Shown here piece after piece: positions 3,861 to 61,273 of a stretch of 64,000 bases of DNA; within the stretch, counting starts at the first letter, position 1, and every line of letters starts with the position of its first letter. The stretch covers positions 58,776,782-58,840,781 of the forward strand of contig NC_083344.1 of assembly GCF_019175385.1 (NCBI RefSeq), given 5' to 3'. A program made the position numbers and the translations under genes. The notes below the pieces were generated by a model. That model had not been told where the DNA came from and ran no database searches. It saw only the letters and a program-made list of their open reading frames with translations. The stretch is from Lycium barbarum. Lineage: Eukaryota > Streptophyta > Magnoliopsida > Solanales > Solanaceae.

Positions 3861-4943
3861 ATAGTAGCCATACAAGGGCATACATACATCTAGCTCATAA
3901 GCATCTTTACTATTATCATTATTATCCTCATCGTTATCATTATCGCTATTACCATTATAGTCGTCATTAATATCATTATCACTATTATCATCATTCATCA
4001 CACTTATCTCTATAGGCTTACTCATCATACGAGGAACTTGGTACAATCGTAGCATATCAATAATCGTGAGCTTAATAGCTCGGAAGATCGAATCATTTAT
4101 GAGACATCATAGACTTATGGAATATTTAGATGTTTGGCCCAAGAACCATGCCTTATGAAAGAAGGGTTAGCCTTACATACCTTTCCGTTCAACTATTTTA
4201 CACTTGCACGTTCTCCTCCAATGCTAGCGTTTCTACCTTCATTAAAAGTCATACTACCATTAGAATCAATAGCTAGCATATATGACTAAAGCTAGAGAAA
4301 ATCGGATAGCATCTCCTCTATTTATACGACATTTCCTCCATAACATATATCAACTCCCAAACCTCAATAACACATTCACAATACCATAACAATAGTCATT
4401 ACTCATTCACATTATCCATATTTCTAGACTTACATTCAAATCATCCATATCCATGGCCATAACACACAACGACGTCCATTCACATAAATTTCTCATCTCA
4501 TGTTCTCAACATCATTTATAACGCATTTACATCACAATACATCAAGAACCATAACTCAATTCAAACCATTTTTCAAAATGACACTATTCCATATTCATGA
4601 CCCCTTTTACCATACCCTTCTACAATCCAAGTATTTCAACTCTTAAGTACCTTAAACAACATACAAATATCATGAATCTTACCTTAGATGTTGTAGGAAC
4701 AAGCTTTAGTTGATAATACTCCACTTGAGCAAAAACCCTAGTTTATCTCCATGAGATTTCTTGACTTGAATGACCTTTAATGGGTTTGCTTGCACTTGAT
4801 TAATTTGTTTAATGTTGTTGATCACCAAATACCCTTGAATTCTTGTGGATTATATGTGGAGAGATGTTTTAGAGAGAAGGGGTGGCAAGGGAAATGAAAT
4901 GAAATATAACTTGGCCTTTTCATTTATTGAGCCAAAATCTGCC

Positions 4944-12486: not shown

Positions 12487-12828
12487 AGGATTCTGTCGGT
12501 TTGTTAGAGGTCTGTGGACATGTTGTGGGTTGGGATCTTTCTGCACAGTTGGGTGCTTATGTTGTGTTTGGGCGATCCCATTCTCCGCGGCGGCCGGTCC
12601 GCATATATTTAAATGTTGCGTTGTTGGCCCTGTGTGGTCTTTGTTGGTATTTTCTGCGTGCAGGATATATGGGATAGTCCGTAAAACAAAGGAAACTCTG
12701 CCGAAATTTTTCTAAAAATTAGCTAAATTTGAAATAAAGCCGTGTCGGCTTCTGCCATATACTAGAATGCGTTTGAGTGCCCAGATCGGGCACTAGTCAT
12801 GGCCTACGGGGTTGGGTCGTGACAAAAG

Positions 12829-12840
12829 TGGTATCAGAGC
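12829..12840 (+). promoter_or_regulatory. Primer binding site, initiator tRNA-Met (A)
   Basis: TGGTATCAGAGC, complementary to the 3' end of plant initiator tRNA-Met, lies four bases after the 5' LTR. Reverse transcription would start here. Confidence 0.93.
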
Positions 12841-12880
12841 GGTTCGTCCTCGAAATGTCTACAGACCGTGTCTAGTAGAG

Positions 12881-12922
12881 TCTTGTTTATCGGTGTGTTG
12901 TGCACCACACCTATAAACAAGA
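12881..12922 (+). other. Leader hairpin with palindromic loop (A)
   Basis: The arms 12881-12897 and 12906-12922 pair over 16 positions with one mismatch. The 8-nt loop is TT followed by the self-complementary GTGCAC (12900-12905). It lies 40 nt after the primer site. The same structure is in B, C, D, E and I. Its form matches a retroviral dimer-initiation kissing loop. Confidence 0.6.
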
Positions 12923-13010
12923 GGCTACAGGGGATTTAGGATATTACCCTTCTTTCTGTCTTAGATCGTGCGATAGAGCTGTGTTATCAGGATGATTCCT
13001 CCCTAACGAA

Positions 13011-13027: not shown

Positions 13028-15649
13028 ATGCCTCCAAAAAAGGCGACAGCGGCCCAAAAGGCCAAGGCAGCAGCTGTGGGAGAGACTAGTCGGGCCCAGA
13101 GGGTTACCAGGGCCCATGCTCATATTGCTCCTGATATTTTGCCCCCGGCAGAGGGCTCTTCCACACCGCCACACGTAGAGGAGATTGGAGCAGCAGCAGC
13201 TGCAGGTCGAGGGGCGGCTCCACCGCCAGCTCCCGAGATTCCAGTACCTGAGCCTCCAGCTCCACGGCCAGGGACTGAGGATCAGACTATGAGAGAGGCA
13301 GTCCAGCTATTGACTAGACTTGTGGCAGGACAGGTTCAGGGGCACGGACTGGGAGGTGACCGGGCTTACAGGCGTGACAGTTCGAGAGCCCGTGAGTTCT
13401 TGACTTGTGGCCCTCCAGAGTTCTTCGGGACAAAGCCCGAGGAGGATCCCGAGGAGTTCATCAGAAAGATGCGGCGCACCTTACAGTTTATTAATGCTTC
13501 CGAGACAGAGTCAGTTGCATTAGCTTCGTACCGGTTGTATGATGTAGCGGCAAATTGGTACGAGTCATGGGAGTTATCCAGAGGCGACGGCGCTCCCCCA
13601 GCAGTTTGGGATGATTTTTCTCAGGCTTTTCTTAGCCACTTTCTGCCTCCGGAGTTACTGCGGGCCAAGGCTGACAGATTCTTATTGCTGAGGCAGAGGG
13701 GTCGCAGTGTTCGAGAGTATAGTATGGAGTTCGACTCATTGGCCCGATACGCACCTGCTGTGGTAGCGACTATGGCTGACATGATGCACAGGTACATTAT
13801 GGGGCTGGACCGTTATTTTGTCGACAGCTGTTTGGTATTGGCTGCTCAGCCCGGCATGGATATTGCCCGGATTCAGGCCCACGCCCAGGGCATGGAGGAC
13901 CGGCATAGGGAGCGTCAGCCTGATAGGGGCCAGGAGCGGAGACAGCCCAAGAGGGCCAGATCATCTGGGTATTCTAGAGATTTTCGGGGCAGGCAGCCTC
14001 AGCAGCCTCAGCAGCCGCAGCAGCCTAGCAGACATCCATCCCAACCGGCACAGAGCGCACCTCCACAGCCTACAGGTCGCAGATTTGATAGCTCAGGTTA
14101 TTCAGGAGCAGGTCAGAGCTCCAGGGCTTCAGGTTCGCGGACAGACAGGGGTTCTGGTCAGACGAGGCCACCTAGGCCTCAGTGTTCTTACTGTGGCAGA
14201 TACCATCCTGGGGAGTGCTCCAGAGCCACCGGTGCATGTTTTTCTTGTGGCCGCCAGGGCCATTCTGTGAGAGATTGCCCGTATAAGGGTAGTTCGGGTG
14301 GTGCAGCGCAGCCTACCGGATCAGCCGCCGGGTCTTCATCTTCATCAGTGGTTATGCGCCCTACGGGGCCAGGTACTTCAGCACCAGCGGGTCGCGGCAG
14401 AGGCCGTGGTGGAGCTTCTGGTACTAGCGGTCCTTCGAACCGTATTTATGCTCTGTCCAGCCGCCAGGATCAGGAGGCATCGCCTAATGTCGTTACAGGT
14501 ACATTATTGGTTTTCTCTCGGTCTGTGTATGCATTGATTGATCCAGGTTCGACTTTGTCATATATTTCGCCTCTGGTTGCTTGTAAAATTGGTATAACAT
14601 CTGAACCTATAGAGCCGTTTGAGGTAGCCACACCGATTGGGGACTTTATTGTAGCAAAACAGGTATATAAGAACTGTTCTGTAATTGTATGTGGCCGTGA
14701 CACTAAGGCAGATCTGGTGGAGTTAGATATGGTCGAGTTCGACGTTATTATGGGAATGGACTGGCTAGCCTCCTGTTATGCTAATGTTGATTGCCAAAAT
14801 AAGGTAGTTCGTTTCCAATTTCCTGGGGAGCCAGTTATAGAATGGGCCGGTAATATAGCATCGCCGAAAGGTAAGTTTATTTCATACCTTAAGGCAAAGA
14901 AAATGATTAGAAAGGGTTATTTTTATCATCTGGTTCGGGTACAAGACTTGACAGCAGAAACGCCGACTCTTCAGTCAGTTCCCGTGGTTAATGAATTTCC
15001 AGATGTGTTCCCAAAAGAGATTCTAGGCCTTCCTCCAGAGCGGGAGATAGATATTACTATTGATTTGCTTCCAGATACTCAGCCGATATCTATTCCCCCG
15101 TACAGAATGGCACCGGCAGAATTGAAAGAACTGAAAAAGCAGTTGAAGGATCTGTTAGAAAAAGGCTTCATTAGACCCAGCACTTCGCCTTGGGGAGCCC
15201 CAGTATTATTTGTGCGTAAGAAAGACGGGTCGTTGCGTATGTGTATTGATTATCGACAGCTGAATAAGGTAACCATAAAGAATAAATACCCCCTCCCCAG
15301 AATTGACGATTTGTTTGATCAGTTGCAGGGCGCCAAGTATTTTTCGAACATAGATCTTCAGTCTGGCTATCATCAGGTACGGGTACGGGAGGCCGATATT
15401 CCTAAGACAGCATTCCGGACCAGATATGGGCATTATGAATTTAGAGTTATGTCTTTTGGGCTGACTAATGCTCCTGCGGTATTCATGGATTTAATGAATC
15501 GGGTATTCAGGCCATTCTTGGATATGTTCGTAATTGTATTTATCGATGATATTCTGGTTTATTCTCGATCCGAGGCAGAGCACGCAGATCATCTGAGAGC
15601 AGTATTGGGGGGTACTTCGGCGTCAGAAATTATATGCAAAATTTTCTAA
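13028..15649 (+). CDS. A: Gag, protease and most of RT (873 codons)
   Basis: The N-terminus is basic, then Ala/Pro-rich, followed by the capsid region ([30 protein letters not shown]) and a Gln/Pro/Ser-rich linker. Two Cys clusters follow: [12 protein letters not shown] from residue 386 and the CCHC knuckle [14 protein letters not shown] at 404-417. Protease has its catalytic Asp near residue 505 in [13 protein letters not shown] runs from about 680, with [20 protein letters not shown] and the active site FIDD at residues 838-841 (15539-15550). The frame is lost about 60 nt later at the extra G, and the stop at 15649 lies in the wrong frame. No stop separates gag from pol, as is usual for this clade. 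Confidence 0.93.
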
Positions 15650-17422: not shown

Positions 17423-17452
17423 AAATCATACACTGACAAACGGCGTCGTCCT

Positions 17453-17941
17453 TTGGAATTCCAGGTTGGTGATTGGGTATTTCTGAAGGTATCGCCTATG
17501 AAAGGCGTAATGCGGTTCGGCAGAAAGGGTAAGCTTAGTCCGCGTTATATTGGGCCTTATCTGATCGTGCGAAAAATTGGGAATGTCGCCTATGAGTTAG
17601 ACCTTCCATCTGATTTGGAAGCAGTACATCCGGTATTCCATGTGTCTATGCTCCGCAAATGCATTGGTGATCCCTCCAGAATATTTCCTGCGGATGATAT
17701 TCAGGTGACGGAGCAGTTATCTTATGAGGAGCAGCTCGTAGCTATTTTGGACCGCCAGGTAAGAAAGCTCCGGAACAACGATGTAGCCTCTGTTAAGGTG
17801 CTGTGGCGGAATAATAATAGGGAGGAAATGACCTGGGAAGCCGAAAAGGAGATGAAGAAGAAATATCCTCATTTGTTCCCAGAACCCTCAGGTAATTCCG
17901 AACCTTTGCTTAATTCCATTTCGATAATGAATGTGTACTAA
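17453..17941 (+). CDS. A: integrase C-terminus and chromodomain (162 codons)
   Basis: This is the same frame after the TAG stop; the first codon (TTG) is not a real start. It holds the GPY module (KLSPRYIGPYLIVRKIGN) and a chromodomain-like segment, roughly residues 88-141, with AILDRQVRKLRN, KVLWRNNNREEMTWE and KYPHLF. Chromodomains of chromovirus integrases direct insertion to H3K9-methylated chromatin in studied cases, which fits the self-nesting seen here. The natural stop is at 17939-17941. Confidence 0.9.
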   Translation: MEFQVGDWVFLKVSPMKGVMRFGRKGKLSPRYIGPYLIVRKIGNVAYELDLPSDLEAVHPVFHVSMLRKCIGDPSRIFPADDIQVTEQLSYEEQLVAILDRQVRKLRNNDVASVKVLWRNNNREEMTWEAEKEMKKKYPHLFPEPSGNSEPLLNSISIMNVY

Positions 17942-18001: not shown

Positions 18002-18037
18002 AACATTCGAGGACGAATGTTCTAAAGGGGGGGAGGA
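18002..18037 (+). promoter_or_regulatory. Element A inverted repeat and polypurine tract
   Basis: AACATTCGAGGACGAATGTT (18002-18021; 8-bp arms, AGGA loop) is followed by AAAGGGGGGGAGGA (18024-18037), which abuts the 3' LTR and primes plus-strand DNA synthesis. The repeat is identical in B, C and E. Confidence 0.92.
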
Positions 18038-20952: not shown

Positions 20953-23330
20953 GTCCAACCGTGTCATAATTCATGTCGGCATAAAGTATTCTCTTAAGTT
21001 GTCTTTCATCCTTTCCCTTCATGTCGGCCTCACGGTATACTCATTGGCAATTCGTTTCTACTTCTTTCATGTATTCTCTTGGTATGCCGATATGTTTCGA
21101 ACTCTGGCCCCGAGCTAATAAATTTCCTTTTCTGGCGCTTGAAAATATTGTGATCCCTTTTTGGACTAATATAATATGGTCTCCCCCCCCCCCCCCCTTT
21201 AAGGGGCTCCTATGTACCAACAGTCTTCGAGTACCTTTGTCTACGTTAATTACCTTACTTCTCATCCTTCTTCCCAACTTTGTGCATAACATATCAAAAA
21301 CTTCTTACCATAAGTTTTGTCTACACTATCATTCTTGTCAATATTCCCATACCTTTCTATCCACTATTAGTCCTTTCGCACATTTAGCTCGCTTACTCGT
21401 AAGTCTTCTTAATTATGCGCTTGTATCGCAGCCGTGCGTCCATATTTCTCAAGTGTCCCGCTACTTTAGTTCTTAGCACAGAATCCTTACAATTTTCACT
21501 CTCTTTATCCTTATTCATCGAGTCTTTAACTATATTTATGATGCTATAACCGAGCGGTCTCCTATTACTAACTTGTCAAAGTATCCTTCTTACTCCTATG
21601 ATTAAAGATTTCCAATTGTTTCGCTCCCAAAGGTCCTCCTCTTCCTTCGACTAATCCGTTAGTATATTTTTCCTACTTTTGTCCCTAACCTTCCTTTGTT
21701 TTCTTCCTCCTCGAACACTTTTCTTCTTTTGCCATTTGTGGCATCGGCTCTGGAGTTCGTGAAATTTTGCCTTAAACGTGCAAACCCGTCTTATTCTCAA
21801 GTCATCCTTTTAGGAAAGCATTTCCATGTCCGAGGCAACCACATCAACATAGCTGCACATTTTATTCCTTTATATACCTTTCGAGGGTCTAAATCCCCTA
21901 ACATTGTCATAAGGCCTAATCATTCTTTTCTTGCTTCATATCCCTCGTTATAGTCACTATTCCTCTAGTCCCACTTATTGGAATCGGTTCTCGAGCCTCA
22001 CATATTCCTCTTTGGTTCTATATTACCACACTTTACCCTTTTCACGTACCTATCTTTGAATTTCTGCCCAAGCAGTCTAGTGCTTTGTCGTTAGTTTCTC
22101 TCGGGGGATTCCCTCACTGAGTTTTCTTACTTTTCATTTTTCCCGACCTTTTGATCTCCTTGCCTTCCATTAACTCACACTCTTTCTTTTCCAAGTATCG
22201 TTGTATTGGAGTTTTCCCATCTTAACCTGTAGTGAAAATAGCAGCTTATCTTATAACACTTGCACCATTTTGTTTTTTTTACTGTCACTCGGGCTTCGGT
22301 ATCCTTTACTCGATTGAGACCTTCCTTACCGTAGCGTCGGTTACTGGGACTCACATTTCCACTGATACAATCATATATAAGATATCATATGCATTTATAT
22401 ATATATATATAATTATTATCAACTAACCCACAAAATACTTCCAAACGATATTCAAGCCTATCCAAATTCCATAGTTGTGACGCACTCTCTGTCTCTTCAC
22501 CAGTCTAGTCTGCCTCGTCTTGCGCGACCTCTTATGGTCTCCAACCATCTCGTATACTCTAATTTCACTCAGGCTATTCTAGCTTTTCATTTGTCTCTTA
22601 TGTCTAAATCTTTAAGATTTCTTGCATACTTCCCAGGGGGTCACCCATCCTGAGATTTCTCCCACTTTAGCACGCTTAACCTCGAAACTTTGATGAAATC
22701 CGGTGCATTAATGCTGATATAATCGCGTCCGCTTCCTTACATGACCTTTATCACATGATCCAGAGCAAATTGAAGTCTTACAGATTCCGAGACATGTTCG
22801 TAACACGTCCTTTCTTTTACAATTACTATTTTACCCTTTTCGATTTCCAATGTTCCCTTTTCACTTATATGTGTAACTATCCTTCGTCCCAGATTCCCAA
22901 TTTCCAGATGGTAGCAAATATACCTTCATCGCCGTTACCTATAAGTTCTCAGGTATCAGTATGTTCAGATTTCCACTCACCATCCGTACATAATAGTCTA
23001 CAGCAAAACTGTTTGTCAACTTTCTCTGAATCCTTCAACAGACCTGGTTCCTCTTATACCATTCTTTCCTTTCAAAATCTATACACAACAAATATCAACA
23101 ATGCCTCGCAGAGCATACGACCATTTACCACATTCTAGCCATCCGGAACTGCCAATTTCAGGTAACAGATCAAATATATCAATACTTACCGCAGTGACTT
23201 TCCATGTCATCACTTACCTCATTCCGTCGTATGTAAGGCTTATATATGGAATTTCATTTTCCTATGACTTGGCTCTATCGCACGATCTATGACAGAAAGA
23301 AGGTCAACAATCCCTAGATGCCCCGTAGCC
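20953..23330 (-). other. Element B interior, 5' part, non-coding
   Basis: This is the rest of the B interior. It is pyrimidine-rich on the plus strand with only short random frames (the longest, 21021-21476, has no recognisable domain). It contains a second purine tract on the minus strand at 21203-21181 and a short TA tract near 22395-22410. I recognise no gag or pol remnant. Confidence 0.6.
21181..21203 (-). promoter_or_regulatory. Internal polypurine tract of B
   Basis: On the minus strand CTTAAAG plus a run of about 15 G and AGA resembles the true tract at 9149-9129. It lies about 1 kb from the 3' LTR once A is removed. It could be a central tract, a relic of an internal rearrangement, or a simple repeat. 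Confidence 0.4.
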
Positions 23331-23371
23331 TCCTGTTTATAAATGTGGCGCGCTTCACACCATAGACAAGA
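23331..23371 (-). other. Leader hairpin with palindromic loop (B)
   Basis: In the B transcript the arms pair (about 16 positions, one mismatch, two G-U in the middle and one near the base, one bulge) around the loop AAGCGCGC, with GCGCGC at 23348-23353. Position and size match A (42 nt) although B lacks genes. Confidence 0.6.
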
Positions 23372-23401
23372 CTCTACTGGAAACGACTTTGCAGACAACC
23401 T

Positions 23402-23413
23402 GCTCTGATACCA
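23402..23413 (-). promoter_or_regulatory. Primer binding site (B)
   Basis: The plus strand reads GCTCTGATACCA, so the B strand has TGGTATCAGAGC three bases after its 5' LTR, complementary to initiator tRNA-Met. Confidence 0.93.
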
Positions 23414-23416
23414 CAT

Positions 23417-26033
23417 TGTCACACCCTAATCTCCCTAGGGTGTGATGGGCACCCGACCCTTACTTAGGGCCGAGCGAACCCTCTGACCCTTAGTACACAC
23501 ATAATCTTGTCAAACTTTTAAATCAAATAAGGATGAAATACATAGCAAAACTTTCAGAAATATTGTTTCTCGTAGTTTTCAAATCAAACAAAATATGTAA
23601 TCATATAGAACTTATATCATAACACAAAATGACACATCGGCCGATGGAGCCGCTTACAGAACTGACAAACAATACCCACGACTCTTTCTGCAAACATCAT
23701 AACATAATACTCTGACCCGACAACACTCCAGAGGCAAATGGAGCTTGCCAACTTCGCTGGAACATCTTCTGTAATGACTTCTACTCATCTGGGTGTACCT
23801 GCGCGGCATGAAACGCAGCCCAAGAAAAAAGGGGGTCAGTACGGAATATTTACTGAGCATGTAAGGCAAGGATCACGGAAAAAGAGAATCATAGCTGAAA
23901 CAGAGATTTACCAGAATCAAGTATAAACTTGTAAAACATCACAGTACTTGCCTTCTCAAAAGAAAATCAGATATGTCATCATAAATCATAAATGAAAATC
24001 ATGTATGCCATCATCGTATATCATATGTCATATAACATGCCCCGGCCCTATAGTGAGGGACGTGGTGAGTAAGTTCATGCATGTCATCACCATATATCAT
24101 GTACGCATATAACGTGCCCCGGCCCTCCATTGAGGGACGCGGTGAATGAAATCATGTATGTCAATGTCATGTATCATATATGCATGTAACGTGCCCCGAC
24201 CCTCTTTTGCGGGACGCGGCGAATGAGATCATGTGCCATTCTGGCCACCACCCCGTCATCATATCATAATGTCATCATATCATATATAACATGCCCCGGC
24301 CCGCAAGTGAGAGGGACTCGGTGAACAATGCAGAGAAGTACGCACGAGAACATACCCTGGCCCGGGACGCAGTGAAGGACATACTGAGACTTGCACCAAC
24401 AGAGTAGTGCGAAACCATATGCACATAAATCAAGACTCGATAGATACGTACACTTACCGACGTTTGAAGGATCATAAACGCGTTTCGAATAAATCGGAGT
24501 TAGTATATGAAAGTTACGGACATTTTTACCACAGAACTTTTACGAACGTTTCAAAGCAAATCCAATATCTTTTACAAAAGATAGGGACATTAAAACTTAC
24601 AGAACTCTTTCAGAAACAAAACTCTTTATACTTATCTCATTATTCAATCATATAATAAGCTCGATCATATCAGACATACTTATATCAGAAGTGAATCAGA
24701 ATCATAGACAACCTCGGAAGCATATCAAACAGAGCTTCGGCATCATGGCTACATATCAAGACCATATGAAGTAACTTATTCATTTATTAATCATACAATG
24801 GACTCAACCATACGAGACATGCTCATGACAAAAGAGAATAAGCATCATGACCAAGTTCGGAATCAAAGAGTAGAATTACCCCGAGGTGCGTGTCATGTCA
24901 TACCTTAATTAGCTCTAGGACATGCCAAAAGAAAGAAGGGATAAGCCTTACACACCTGTCCCACGACCAACTAGCGACGCTTATTTGTCCAAACTTGCTA
25001 GTCTACATACAAAAGAATTCACATAATCATTAGATTCATTGACATATACTTGTCTTAGTCTTTCAAATGAATTCACTTATATTCTACCGAAATTGCGGCA
25101 GCATTTCCCCTGTAAATACAACATTCCCGAGAATCTAACTCGGCCCAAATCATCAACACCAAATCCGAGAAGGTAACTCGGCCAATTTATCAACAATAAT
25201 CCGAGAATTCCACTCGGCCACATTATCCACAATAATCCGAAATCTTCCAAACTTAATAAGGACAGTAACAACACATTGTTTTCTTCCAAATTCATGAACT
25301 ACACCACAATCTACACTTTAACAACTTTGTCAATCAATTCCAAATACCTTCTAACGTTAGTAACTTCTTTTACATAATTCGGCAACATTTTCTTATATTC
25401 AATTCAATCACAACAACCAACTTACAATCTTCCAAACACATGTCTCACTTCCAAATTCATAAATTATATTTACAACTTACACATTAGGACTATCATTCCT
25501 ACAAGTATAAGAATCCATACTAATGTCATACTAACTTCCTCAATAATGCACAAACGATTTCAAATTCATTCCAAGCCACCAAACCTTCATTTTACATCAT
25601 GAAATCCACAACACAACAATCAACTACTAAATAAAATCATTTCATCTTTTCTACACAACACCACCCTATTCGGCCATACCACATACACACATATTTTATG
25701 AACTTCACCCTTTTCCACATACTACAACACTCAACAACATGCATAGACCATCCATAACATATGAAAGAGAGTTAAACCTTACCTTTTCTTCTTAGCTCTT
25801 CAACTTGGCTAGGGTTGTGAATTGCACCATTGAATGGTTTGCTTGCTCCAACAACCATCCCATGTTAATTAGGGCCTTCAAATTAGTTGGAATACTAGGA
25901 GGAAATAATTTTTCTTGATCAATTTTCCATGGCTAAATTTTTGCACCATGGCCGAACCCTTCTCTTTCTCTCTTCTTCTCTTTTTTTTTCTTTCTCTCCA
26001 ACTTCCTAAATTAAATTGATGAATAAAGTGGCC

Positions 26034-30899: not shown

Positions 30900-30991
30900 A
30901 CGGTTAACGAACAAGAATTTCTTATATCATAGCTCTATCGCACGATTCTTATGAAGAAAGAAGGTCAATCATTCCTATAATGTCCGAAGTT

Positions 30992-31033
30992 TCTTGTTTA
31001 TAAGTGTGGCGCGCAACATACCCATAACCAAGA
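30992..31033 (-). other. Leader hairpin with palindromic loop (C)
   Basis: A 42-nt hairpin in the C transcript with loop TTGCGCGC (palindrome GCGCGC at 31009-31014). The stem differs from A at several places but is kept by G-U and complementary pairs, with two mismatches. Confidence 0.58.
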
Positions 31034-31075
31034 CTCTACTAGACACGGCTCGTAGACACACCCTAGGACTGAACT

Positions 31076-33739: not shown

Positions 33740-33775
33740 AGTTCATCCTCGGAGTGTAGACCGTGTCTAGTAGAG

Positions 33776-33817
33776 TCTTGTTTATCGGTGTGTTGTGCAC
33801 CACATCTATAAATAGGA
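33776..33817 (+). other. Leader hairpin with palindromic loop (D)
   Basis: A 42-nt hairpin with loop TTGTGCAC (palindrome 33795-33800). Three base changes from A in the 3' arm (at 33805, 33813 and 33815) all leave G-U pairs, so the stem survives. Confidence 0.6.
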
Positions 33818-33910
33818 AGCTACAGGACATTTAGGATGTTACCTTTCCCTTTTACTCTAGATCGTGCGATAGAGCTATATTATCAGGATAATCCCTCCCT
33901 ACAAATTATT

Positions 33911-45790: not shown

Positions 45791-45830
45791 GGTTCGTCCT
45801 CCGAATGTGTACAGACCGTGTCTAGTAGAG

Positions 45831-45872
45831 ACTTGTTTATCGGTGTGTTGTGAACCACACCTATAAACAGGA
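45831..45872 (+). other. Leader hairpin (E), loop palindrome broken
   Basis: Same 42-nt hairpin as in A, but the loop reads TTGTGAAC: one C-to-A change destroys the GTGCAC palindrome. If the palindrome works in dimerisation, this copy should be weak. Confidence 0.55.
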
Positions 45873-45960
45873 GGCTACAGGGCATTTAGGATACTACCCT
45901 TCTTTCTGTCTTAGATCGTGCGATAGAGCTGTGTTATCAGGATGACTCCTCCCTAACGAA

Positions 45961-50945: not shown

Positions 50946-50981
50946 AACATTCGAGGACGAATGTTCTAAAGGGGGGGAGGA
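50946..50981 (+). promoter_or_regulatory. Element E inverted repeat and polypurine tract
   Basis: AACATTCGAGGACGAATGTT (50946-50965) then AAAGGGGGGGAGGA (50968-50981), abutting the 3' LTR, as in A. Confidence 0.92.
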
Positions 50982-57429: not shown

Positions 57430-60144
57430 TGTTACGCCCCAGAAAATTTAATGTTACTAAGGCTGCAGACGGCTTAATGTGAGCTCAATGAGGAGAAAAT
57501 ATTACAAGTATAAAGGATGAAATTATACTATATTACCATGAGGATAGCATGAGTATGATATTTGGAATTCGTACAATATGTTGGAATGATACGTTAAAAG
57601 ATATATAGCCCTCGTAATCGTAAGCTGACGTGGGGTCCACATGTTGAGATTTTATAAAGGACATATGACACGTTATATGGATAATATATGTGAAGTTAAA
57701 CACAACTCAAGGAGGACCCTTGAGCCAAATCAAAGTGGAAGCCTTTCAAAAAGAAGTTTTTAAGTTACGTTTTCGGGTGATCTGACTTCGGGAGGTCATA
57801 ACCCCATCATTATTTGGGAATTTGGGAAAACACTTAAAATAAAAGTTGTAGATAATTGAAATACCTTTCCAACCATAGGTCGTGGGACTACCTGTGACAT
57901 AGGGATAAAAGTTATGGACGTTTTAAGGCAGAAAGGTCAAGCTGGGCAGCGGGCTCGGCCCAACCCTATTCCAAGTCGGGTCAGGCCCACTTCCCTTGCT
58001 ATTTAAGGGAAATTTTCAGCCTTATCTGCCTCATGTTTCATACCAAAGGTCCAGAATATTTTAGATAGAGATAGAGGAGAGTTAGAGAGAGAAAGCGGAG
58101 AATCGATCAAGTTCGAGGCCCCGAATCCCGAGGCCCGTGAAGAGTAAAGTGTAGTACAAGTTGTTGCCATCGTTTTAAGCTAAAAATTGAACTTGGGGGA
58201 TGTTGTTTTCGTGGTGTCTTCTCATAAAAGGTATGTTTAAGATTTTAATGATGTTCTTACCCTGATCATTGATAGATTTGGCGGGTTAGAATAGAGAAAA
58301 TGACATTGAAAGTTCGGTTATAATTTTTGGATATCAAATGACTTGGGGGCTGTTTTGGTATTATTAAATGGATAGGATTAGTTGGATATTGATATAAAAT
58401 AATTGTTGATATTGTTGTTGATGTTGTTGATAAGTTGTTGTTCTTGAATTTGGGAGAATAAAGTGTATGAAGATATCGTATACAAAGCGTAAACCGAGCC
58501 GTTTTGGTGTATATCCTTGGGAGTTGATACTTTGAGTTTAAAAAGGCTTATACGAGATGGTTCTTGTTGTTGTTAATTTAGCTGAATTGGATTCTTGGGG
58601 TTGTCGAGTTTATAAAGGAAATGCTGTCGAAATTCCGTTAGCAATAAAGATAAGTTTTAGGGATTGATTATAAGGATATCTATTGGATTGATTGTTGGTA
58701 AATTGGTATTGTTGATAGATTAGCATGACCCGAAGATGGGATGCGGTTAGCTGGAAAGCGGCAAAGGTATGTAAGGAAAACCTTTCTTCCTTTGGCATGA
58801 TTCTTATCGTTATTCGTTCGTAGACGAGTAATGTCTAAATGTTTCTTGTGATGGCTTGTTGATATTGTACTCCTATTTTGTTCCGAAGGGAACACCCATA
58901 AAGTGCCAAGTTGAGTTATGTATATGGTTTTACTATTGATCTTGAGGAAATGATTTTTATACTAAATGAAACATAAAGTTTGATTTTCAAAACCACTCTG
59001 AAGGGGGTGCGAGATTTTACTACTTCATTTCATTTACGATTTATGTTTACACTCCGTAGTATCATCCCATTGTATTGACATGATCATTTATTCTTTGGGT
59101 AAGGCAATAAGATGAAATTGAGTAGAATATAGGTAGTAAGAATTTCATAACAATTCTACCCTCAAACCTGAAAGTATGTCCTCCTAAGTCTAGTGAGATA
59201 CAAATTTGATAACTTCTTATGAAACTCTAAGGCTAATAACTGGATTGTGATGAATTAATTAGTGACTTATGATATTAATTGAAATTGATATTTGTGGATT
59301 AAGTTTGTGTTGATATGAGGATGATATTAAGCCGGAGGCAGCCGCCCGAAGGGGCCATCATTATTATGCCGGAAGCAGCTGTCCGAAGGGACTATTGTAA
59401 TACTAGCCTCAAGCGGCTGTCCGATGGGACCATTCTGTTAACATGTCGGAAGCGGCATGTGTGTTGGATTTCATTATTTACTTAAAGATTGTTTTGAGAC
59501 TTCGTGTGCACATTTATGTTTCATCCAGCGAAGGCTGCAGGTATTGAGTTAGGTTGCGATTTCTTCTCTCCTAAGTCAAATTATGATTATGACTTGTTAC
59601 CACCTTACATACTCAGTGCATTGTCCGTACTAACGTCCTTTTTCCTGGGGACGCTGTGTTCATGCCCGCAGCCACAGATTATTTGGCAGGTTAAGTGTAC
59701 AGCTAGGATGCTTGGATGTCAGCTACGATTGGCAAGTTCCACCTCATTCTGGAGTCGTACTGAGTCATGTATCGATATGTATGATTATGGGTATGTCAGG
59801 GCCCTGTCCTGACTCATAATGTTTAGTTTACTTCTTAGAGACTTCTGCAGACAGTGTCCTGTAGTATGTTTGTCGAGATGTCTACAAAGTGATGTCAGTT
59901 GAGTCATTTGTTGATTTTAAAAGAGTGTGTATTTTAGATGATTTAAATTGGTTAAGGTACTTATTTGATTGAAGGTTTTCATAATTGTTATAAAGATGAT
60001 GATTTCTAACTGGAAAATTTTTATGTTTTTTTTTTTAATTTTTTTTTGAAATGGCAAGCTTTGATAGAGCAAATGTCTAAGGGTTCGCTCGACTCTGATG
60101 AGAGTCAGGTGCCCGTTATGCCCTACCATTGTTAGGGTGTGACA
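57430..60144 (+). repeat. Element I 5' LTR (2715 bp)
   Basis: TGTTACGCCCC to GGGTGTGACA. Contains a promoter-like TTTATAAAGGAAATGCTGTC near 58609-58628, donor-like AAG/GTATGT (GT at 58767), GC-rich repeats (59331-59462), twin hairpins (59613-59653) and the GCCCTGT-loop hairpin (59795-59813). Confidence 0.92.
59331..59462. repeat. GC-rich tandem repeat in I LTR
   Basis: About 3.5 copies of a 40-bp unit with core GCCGGAAGCGGCTGTCCGAAGG. The same array is at 63189-63315 in the 3' LTR, with small differences. Confidence 0.8.
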
Positions 60145-60147
60145 AAG

Positions 60148-60159
60148 TGGTATCAGAGC
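60148..60159 (+). promoter_or_regulatory. Primer binding site (I)
   Basis: TGGTATCAGAGC, three bases after the LTR; initiator tRNA-Met type. Confidence 0.92.
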
Positions 60160-61237
60160 TGTTCGTTCTGGGGTTGTCTGCAAAGTCGTGTCCGGTAGAG
60201 TCTTGTTCATGGGTGTGTTGTCGACCACACTTACGAATAGGAGGCTACAGGACATCTAGGATGGTTTCCCTTTATTCAGACCATAAATTGTGCTATAGAG
60301 CTGTGTTATAGGCCTTGAATCCTTGCTGCTAATTTTAAGATTTGAATTTTGATTAAGAGATTGTAAAGTGCAGCCATGATTGCGAAATTGGGATTGTTTG
60401 TAAGAAAGATAAGTTCTCTGATGATTAATGATTGCTATGTGAGGTAAGTGTTGCAGGTTAAGGATTGCGGTAAGAAAGGTATGCTTCTTGTCGAAGTGAG
60501 AATGTCGTTTGTGAAGGGCATTTGTACAGGTATGTATATGGTGTTGTAATATGATTGTGGCCCTGTGAGGCATGTTGATATATTTTGATTGCTGCCTTGT
60601 GAGGCTTTCTGGTTAGCTGCGTACATGTGGGTAGTACAAATTACAGAGGAGGTTCTGCCAAAATTTTGTTAAAATTGATTGTGATCAGTAAATATATGTA
60701 TGCTATGATCAGTACGATACACAAGTGTAAACTATAGAATGAAAGATTAATAATAGTTGTAAATCAGCAGAAACAAGGGTTATGAGATAGGTTCAGAATG
60801 AGTTTGAGAGTTAGGTTGAAATTACTCCTGGATATAGAAGTGAGTCGAGGGTTAAGTTAAGTTCTCTCGGGGATTAGAAGTAAGGTTGATGAACTAAGAT
60901 TAATGTGATTCGAATAATGTGATAAGATTATGAGAAAAGACTTAAGAGGGGAAGCAATGATAAGAAAGGAGTCATTCGAGAGGTGAGTTAGTATAAAAAA
61001 GAGTAAGCTTAAACGAGTAAAGAATGAAACAAGGAAGAGAAAGAAACATGACATGCGTCTGAGGAAAGGGAGTAATGTGTCCCTTATAGAAATCAATATA
61101 ACTGAAAGCATCAATGAGGTTAAGGGAAGTTGAAGCTTATAGAGGAAAGATAAGTATTGAAAAGGACTTTAGGAATTGTGAAGATTTGAGTCATATTAAT
61201 AAGCATAGTAATTGGATACGAGTATTAGTCTTTATTT
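60160..61237 (+). other. Element I interior, non-coding
   Basis: The first 140 bases match the leader of A, B and C; the rest is purine-rich (60840-61200) with no frame longer than about 100 codons and no recognisable domain. A CAG lies two bases before an ATG at 60375, a position like the gag start, but only about two dozen codons follow. Confidence 0.6.
60201..60242 (+). other. Leader hairpin with palindromic loop (I)
   Basis: 42-nt hairpin with loop TTGTCGAC (palindrome GTCGAC 60220-60225). A T-A pair of A is C-G here (60208 with 60235), and several others are G-U, so the stem is kept by paired changes. Confidence 0.6.
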
Positions 61238-61273
61238 AACATTTGAGGACGAATGTTTCTAAGAGGGGAAGGA
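61238..61273 (+). promoter_or_regulatory. Element I inverted repeat and polypurine tract
   Basis: AACATTTGAGGACGAATGTT (61238-61257; one base differs from A, giving a G-U pair) then AAGAGGGGAAGGA (61261-61273), abutting the 3' LTR. Confidence 0.88.

Follow-up and report, generated by a model that had tools for sequence, protein, structure and literature searches.

A candidate kissing-loop dimerization hairpin in the leaders of Lycium barbarum LTR elements, with a tip that varies and mostly stays self-complementary

According to the accessible part of PMC5874298, three hexamers, GCGCGC, GUGCAC, and GUGCGC, are the prevalent dimer-initiation sequences of the HIV-1 SL1 hairpin. In the barley pair BARE1/BARE2, the partner that lacks Gag reportedly retains its dimerization and packaging signals (PMC3735527, available excerpt). 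Among the matches listed in the open-access literature, no title concerned dimer-forming hairpins in plant Ty3/gypsy elements, and little was in print on the pairing and packaging of their RNA. Here, we describe a leader hairpin from Lycium barbarum that we consider, at a probability of roughly three in four, to be an element by which plant chromovirus RNAs initiate dimerization and, probably, are packaged. The kissing-type dimer hairpin is a known kind of structure, and its occurrence in plant chromoviruses is likely new.

The leader hairpin and its host elements

A first-pass annotation of the window (the whole 64,000-nucleotide stretch of DNA analyzed) had placed a hairpin of 41 to 42 nt shortly after the primer site of six elements, here named A to E and I, and inspection of the sequence showed that positions and strands were correct in all six (Table 1). 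The upper part of the structure stood as described, but the lower stem had been missed, and the full length is 67 to 68 nt. The base of the upper part opens into an internal loop of purines (2x2; AG facing GG, AG, or AA). Below it, a GTAG/CTAC helix, in which C has CTTC, is separated by a 1x1 mismatch from the outermost helix, GUGUCY/GGACAU, some pairs of which are broken in A and B. The distance from the 12-nt primer site to the hairpin as first annotated ranged from 30 to 42 nt. The primer site was TGGTATCAGAGC, which we take to be complementary to tRNA-iMet, in five of the six elements and TGGTATCAGAGT in D.

When the 67- to 68-nt segments were compared with 200 dinucleotide shuffles each, the folding z scores were -5.4 (I), -4.9 (E), -4.6 (D), and -4.2 (A), with folds only modestly better than the shuffled ones in B (-2.2) and C (-1.7). 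The 5' leaders thus carry, beyond the primer site, the stable hairpin that a retroviral-type dimer-initiation site should have, although its stability is modest in these last two copies. RNAalifold, run on the six leaders with no structure supplied, recovered three base pairs of the outer helix in addition to the inner helices. The compensated pair reported at 60208/60235 was also seen (U-A in five of the window copies and C-G in one).

A domain scan of element A detected gag, protease, RT, RNase H, integrase, and a chromodomain in the order of Ty3/gypsy chromoviruses, and that of element E detected RT, protease, RNase H, and integrase plus chromodomain, while the scan of one frame of D gave no domain match. 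Given that the chromodomain in the integrase of A is a chromovirus mark, A and E are chromoviruses, presumably of the Tekay/Del lineage. Elements B and I had been called noncoding, and their internal regions indeed contained no sense-strand frame of at least 150 amino acids in the frame list; both retain the hairpin, as had been claimed. In a self-BLAST comparison (E value of 1e-10 or better, best 400 matches at most, matches of at least 150 nt considered), the leader was the sole match between coding A and noncoding B or I among those listed, with identities of 75.6% to B (A 12814-12979) and 78.5% to I (A 12814-12987). Despite this common leader, the LTRs of A differ from those of B and I. 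Identities between the two LTRs of each element, in aligned pieces, were 98.3% (A), 98.2% (E), 95 to 97% (C), 93.3% (I), and 91 to 96% (B), so some copies are old.

Table 1. Coordinates of the leader hairpins and of other features of element A in the window
Feature	Position	Strand	Details
A, leader block	12814..12987	+	matches B 23272-23426 (minus) and I 60135-60309
A, primer binding site	12829..12840	+	exact TGGTATCAGAGC
A, full hairpin	12868..12935	+	68 nt; upper part 12881-12922; hexamer GTGCAC 12900-12905
A, gag-protease-RT frame	13028..15646	+	Retrotrans_gag, RVP_2, RVT_1; starts 105 nt after the upper part of the hairpin
A, integrase C terminus with chromodomain	17423..17938	+	PF00385 4.9e-06, PF24626 6e-28
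A, inverted repeat ACATTCG-AGGA-CGAATGT and polypurine tract	18003..18037	+	before the polypurine tract, to about the 3' LTR start
B (noncoding), hairpin	23318..23384	-	upper part 23331-23371; hexamer GCGCGC 23348-23353, preceded by AA
C, hairpin	30979..31046	-	upper part 30992-31033; hexamer GCGCGC 31009-31014; weakest fold (z -1.7)
D, hairpin	33763..33830	+	upper part 33776-33817; hexamer GTGCAC 33795-33800
E, hairpin	45818..45885	+	upper part 45831-45872; hexamer GTGAAC 45850-45855, palindrome lost
I (noncoding), hairpin	60188..60255	+	upper part 60201-60242; hexamer GTCGAC 60220-60225

Other features of these elements lie outside the hairpin. The inverted repeat and polypurine tract found just before the 3' LTR of A are common to A, E, I, B, and C, with further sites at 50947-50981 and 61239-61273 on the plus strand and at about 9169-9129 and 5481-5447 on the minus strand; the repeat of I includes one G-U pair. 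Kept even in noncoding B and I, this repeat is likely a second cis element. A splice-donor-like GAGGTAAGTG occurs in B (23220-23211, minus strand) and in I (60441-60450, plus strand), about 190 and 290 nt beyond the start of the primer site, and in A, C, D, and E, a CAG stands two bases upstream of the gag ATG. The internal region of B also contains a 5S rRNA-like stretch (RF00001, 44.5 bits) at 22615-22724 on the minus strand.

Palindromic loops in the window and in a wider genome sample

The loop hexamers were those given in the first-pass annotation, as were the two loop bases before them (TT, or AA in B). Five of the six window copies are palindromic, E being the only exception, and since palindromes make up 1.8% of the hexamers in the window (1163/63995), a chance origin is disfavored. 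The independence of the six copies had been overstated, as A, D, and E are relatives and the window alone provides ca. five lineages. Covariation among these copies was 0.194 against 0.136 in shuffled alignments for the inner structure (1/500 shuffles as high) and 0.186 against 0.147 for the whole structure (7/500).

A wider sample consisted of 27 stretches of the Lycium barbarum genome, located at mid-chromosome and starting from round-number positions (20 of 10 kb, 2 of 8 kb, and 3 plus 2 of 10 kb; 266 kb). The six window copies served to build a covariance model, which scores the loop letters, and this model was used to search the stretches. Copies are referred to as unselected in the sense that their content played no part in the choice of stretches before the model scan. 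Neither weak model matches nor matches opposite in strand to a counted hairpin were included. The scan provided 13 further hairpins (11 in the first 20 stretches, none in the next batches, and 2 in the last). A wide alignment had been named as the check on the palindromic loop, and the outcome in this sample favored the palindrome: 9 of these 13 unselected hairpins had a palindromic hexamer, compared with the 1.8% of window hexamers. Altogether, 14 of the 19 hairpins were palindromic, with GTGCAC in seven, GCGCGC in five, and GTCGAC and GCCGGC in one DNA copy each. The last, a fourth kind, was found after AA in the unselected copy L067, which grouped in a loop-free tree with the GCGCGC copies B and L058 (moderate support, 82/91), indicating that both central bases changed. 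The five nonpalindromic loops were GTGAAC (E), GTGCGC (L056), GCGCAC (L065), GCGTGC (L086b), and GACTTC (L059). The two bases before the hexamer, which act as an internal control, took six forms (TT, AA, TA, TG, TC, and AT) in the 19 copies, and the next best 6-column slot of the hairpin alignment was palindromic in 8/19, with a single kind. Hence, a self-complementary apical loop apparently kept by selection was found, with five exceptions and with CpG bias as a possible explanation for part of the pattern. GTGCAC was also present in 40/40 of the best 40 of 1536 candidate matches to leader A (A included), which were left outside the statistics because the similarity used for picking them includes the loop.

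Some candidates were examined and set aside. Two matches, on the minus strand of L051 near 1655-1724 (model E value of 0.058) and on the plus strand of L064 near 8452, were not counted, as the hexamer hairpin was not seen; these diverged leaders have the same primer site, a different fold, and no obvious palindromic loop. A primer-site match without hairpin in L081 was likewise not counted. In the much diverged L059 copy (4544-4617), the outer helices are kept, whereas paired changes have replaced the upper stem by a new one, GGTACG/CGTACC. In viral contigs, a protein search for related loci found none, and of two DNA patterns, the first found 0 loci and the second 17; one pattern found 3 loci in genome contigs, and these 20 loci had no tblastn match to the gag or pol of A.

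Covariation was measured on a MAFFT alignment made without structure, against 500 shuffles, which ignore relatedness. The covariation expected by the first-pass annotation in a wider alignment was clear for the self-pairing of the loop, while for the stem it was strong with L059 and weak without it. In the loop of the 19 copies, 94.7% of the cells were paired, versus 80.0% after shuffling (0/500), and covariation was 0.487 versus 0.195 (0/500). Two pairs were double-changed, a number reached in 114/500 shuffles. The excess of paired cells persisted without L059 (96.3% versus 83.4%; 0/500) and in the 13 unselected copies (94.9% versus 81.2%; 0/500), and in both of these sets, no shuffle (0/500) had as many double-changed cells. 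Control loops slid along the alignment were 13 to 84% paired, one of them, with two pairs, reaching 84.2%, and their covariation was at most 0.266. In the stem (26 pairs), 94.3% of the cells were paired across the 19 copies (0/500), compared with 38.5 to 57.1% in slid controls. Six of the 26 pairs were double-changed, versus 1.4 after shuffling (0/500), three of them due to L059, and covariation was 0.157 versus 0.135 (0/500). Without L059, the stem values were 94.4% versus 94.1% for paired cells (79/500), 3 versus 1.2 for double-changed pairs (29/500), and 4 versus 1.3 for double-changed cells (5/500); in the 13 unselected copies, with L059 included, 5 pairs were double-changed, versus 1.2 (0/500).

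Predicted peptides added a further source of loop variants, given that A, C, D, and I can be translated through the loop in one frame and that database peptides exist for this frame. Out of 37 database matches, the loop was translated in 22 and absent in 15, and the residue pairs fit a palindrome in 22/22 (11 Leu-Cys-Thr, 6 Lys-Cys-Thr, 3 Lys-Pro-Ala, and 2 Lys-Arg-Ala). The search queries included the loop residues, and these pairs are compatible with a palindrome but fall short of proof. The six Lys-Cys-Thr matches had E values of 0.12 to 8 and were recognized via the flanking SRVLFMGV. For Lys-Pro-Ala, a palindrome is possible only as GCCGGC; this loop was predicted from the peptides beforehand (if the codon is CCG) and later found as DNA in L067. 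Covariation between GTGCAC and GCGCGC alone is weak support for a dimerization loop; stronger are the central swaps to GTCGAC in I, backed by one DNA copy, and to GCCGGC in L067, backed by one DNA copy and three peptides.

A dimerization model and its alternatives

The predicted self-duplexes of the palindromic hexamers were favorable (GUGCAC, -7.9; GCGCGC, -10.9; GUCGAC, -7.5; and GCCGGC, -11.7 kcal/mol), while that of the E loop, GUGAAC, was +0.4 kcal/mol. Nonpalindromic GUGCGC and GCGCAC were still favorable as bare hexamers (-7.1 and -8.5 kcal/mol), and these two loops may therefore still pair. Relative to two monomers, the predicted energy gain of extended homodimers was 10.9 to 14.9 kcal/mol in A, B, C, D, and I and 3.0 kcal/mol in E. 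Along these lines, the leader would form a long stem just beyond the primer site, interrupted by the purine 2x2 internal loop and capped by an apical loop of 8 nt, consisting of two free bases and the self-complementary hexamer. Two full-length RNAs would first kiss via identical hexamers, forming six intermolecular base pairs; the stem could afterwards open, with its strands re-pairing across the two molecules to give an extended duplex, and the RNA dimer would be taken into particles by Gag. Noncoding B and I, by retaining the leader, might be packaged by Gag from coding relatives. Dimerization, the order of these events, Gag binding, and packaging are all steps that we infer from the leaders.

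The most serious competitor, which we nonetheless consider unlikely, is that the stem is the true packaging or Gag-binding hairpin and that the palindrome is mostly a by-product of inheritance and of the decay of CpG in an ancestral GCGCGC to GTGCAC. CpG decay is common in methylated plant elements, this conversion takes two CpG transitions, and three of the five nonpalindromic loops (L056, L065, and L086b) are each a single CpG transition away from GCGCGC; in a tree without L086b, L056 and L065 adjoin the GCGCGC copies. In simulations with an assumed 10- to 30-fold CpG rate, two changes from GCGCGC gave a palindrome with a frequency of 0.29 to 0.41, compared with 0.067 with no CpG effect. However, two random changes from GTGCAC, GCCGGC, or GTCGAC gave one at only 0.057 to 0.080, two central transversions separate GTCGAC and GCCGGC from the common kinds, variation is free at the two loop bases next to the hexamer, and the CpG-bearing GCGCGC persists in 5/19 copies.

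Lower still, and improbable in our judgment, is an intramolecular role, in which the loop would pair with the block ATCGTGCGATAGAGC further downstream and thereby form a pseudoknot or act as a switch between monomer and dimer. This block (with at most 4 mismatches) lies downstream of 18/19 hairpins, and its best predicted pairing reaches -5.4 to -5.6 kcal/mol with GTGCAC loops and -7.8 to -8.5 kcal/mol with GCGCGC loops, but the self-duplex was stronger in 14/14 palindromic loops, the GTCGAC loop of I had a best downstream pairing of -2.7 against -7.5 kcal/mol with itself, and such a partner needs no self-complementarity. That the block can compete, more weakly, for loops with GTGCAC or GCGCGC would be in keeping with such a switch, which is speculation. 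The block lies at 12965-12979 in A, with counterparts in the other leaders, and bases that follow the primer site may pair with the end of the block. That the inverted repeat feeds small-RNA silencing, or that the structure acts on gag translation, with no dimer role, seems very improbable: long stems can be diced, the gag ATG is 105 nt beyond the hairpin end, and seven of nine weak Rfam matches were microRNA precursors, but all nine were far under threshold, no Rfam family reached the gathering threshold on the hairpin, and neither a palindromic loop nor retention in noncoding B and I would be predicted. Conservation due to a short leader peptide is scarcely credible, since the frame that reads through the loop without a stop in A, C, D, and I, and that has database counterparts, includes a stop within the loop in E and is shortened by a 1-nt shift in B.

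If the hairpin does initiate dimerization, its hexamer could also work as a family identity tag by which RNAs sort into like-with-like dimers, an extension that we regard as doubtful. The idea comes from palindromes that self-pair well while some cross-pairs are poor (A with I, -0.1 kcal/mol; I with I, -7.5 kcal/mol), and it would apply to coding and noncoding elements with a common leader, perhaps a common Gag, and palindromes that differ per family. With a predicted cross-pairing of -6.6 kcal/mol, GTGCAC and GCGCGC would be sorted from each other only leakily. A true tag would mean less interfamily recombination and noncoding parasites that use the common Gag with their own choice of partner. 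This switching of palindromes among families with a common leader is the most interesting part of the pattern.

Comparison with known dimerization systems

LTR elements represent a large share of plant genomes, and if the dimerization reading is true, retrovirus-type dimer initiation would extend to plant chromoviruses and would help explain the continued movement of elements without genes. The variable yet mostly self-complementary tip provides a testable handle, with natural variants that include the broken E loop. The apical loop of HIV-1 has 9 nt, whereas the one described here has 8, two of them on the 5' side of the hexamer and none on its 3' side; a loop without a base after the hexamer is sterically possible, given that TAR-TAR* complexes have fully paired loops.

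As in HIV-1 SL1, in the accessible part of its description (PMC5874298), the palindrome is an apical hexamer in the leader, on a stem with an internal loop. Both GCGCGC and GUGCAC, which the first-pass annotation had compared with HIV-1, are indeed among the prevalent hexamers there, the third being the loop of L056 (GTGCGC), and the two central G-C pairs reported as critical in SL1 are present in all four palindromic kinds found here (PMC5874298, same part). Unlike in HIV-1, the hexamer differs among families within one genome, and it is known from sequence alone. Yeast Ty3 belongs to the same superfamily, and its DS/PAL6 palindrome also tips a 5' hairpin with a proposed kissing dimer, but the Ty3 site lies in the gag coding region and has in vitro dimer assays and in vivo probing behind it (PMC11381356, available part), while the plant hairpin lies in the untranslated leader and is read from DNA only. 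A kissing-loop model for retrotransposon RNA dimers has also been presented for yeast Ty1 (PMC5454406), which, unlike the plant elements with the hairpin, is copia-type (Pseudoviridae). BARE1/BARE2 is likewise a plant element pair, in which the partner without Gag is reported to retain such signals (PMC3735527, available excerpt), but BARE is of the copia superfamily.
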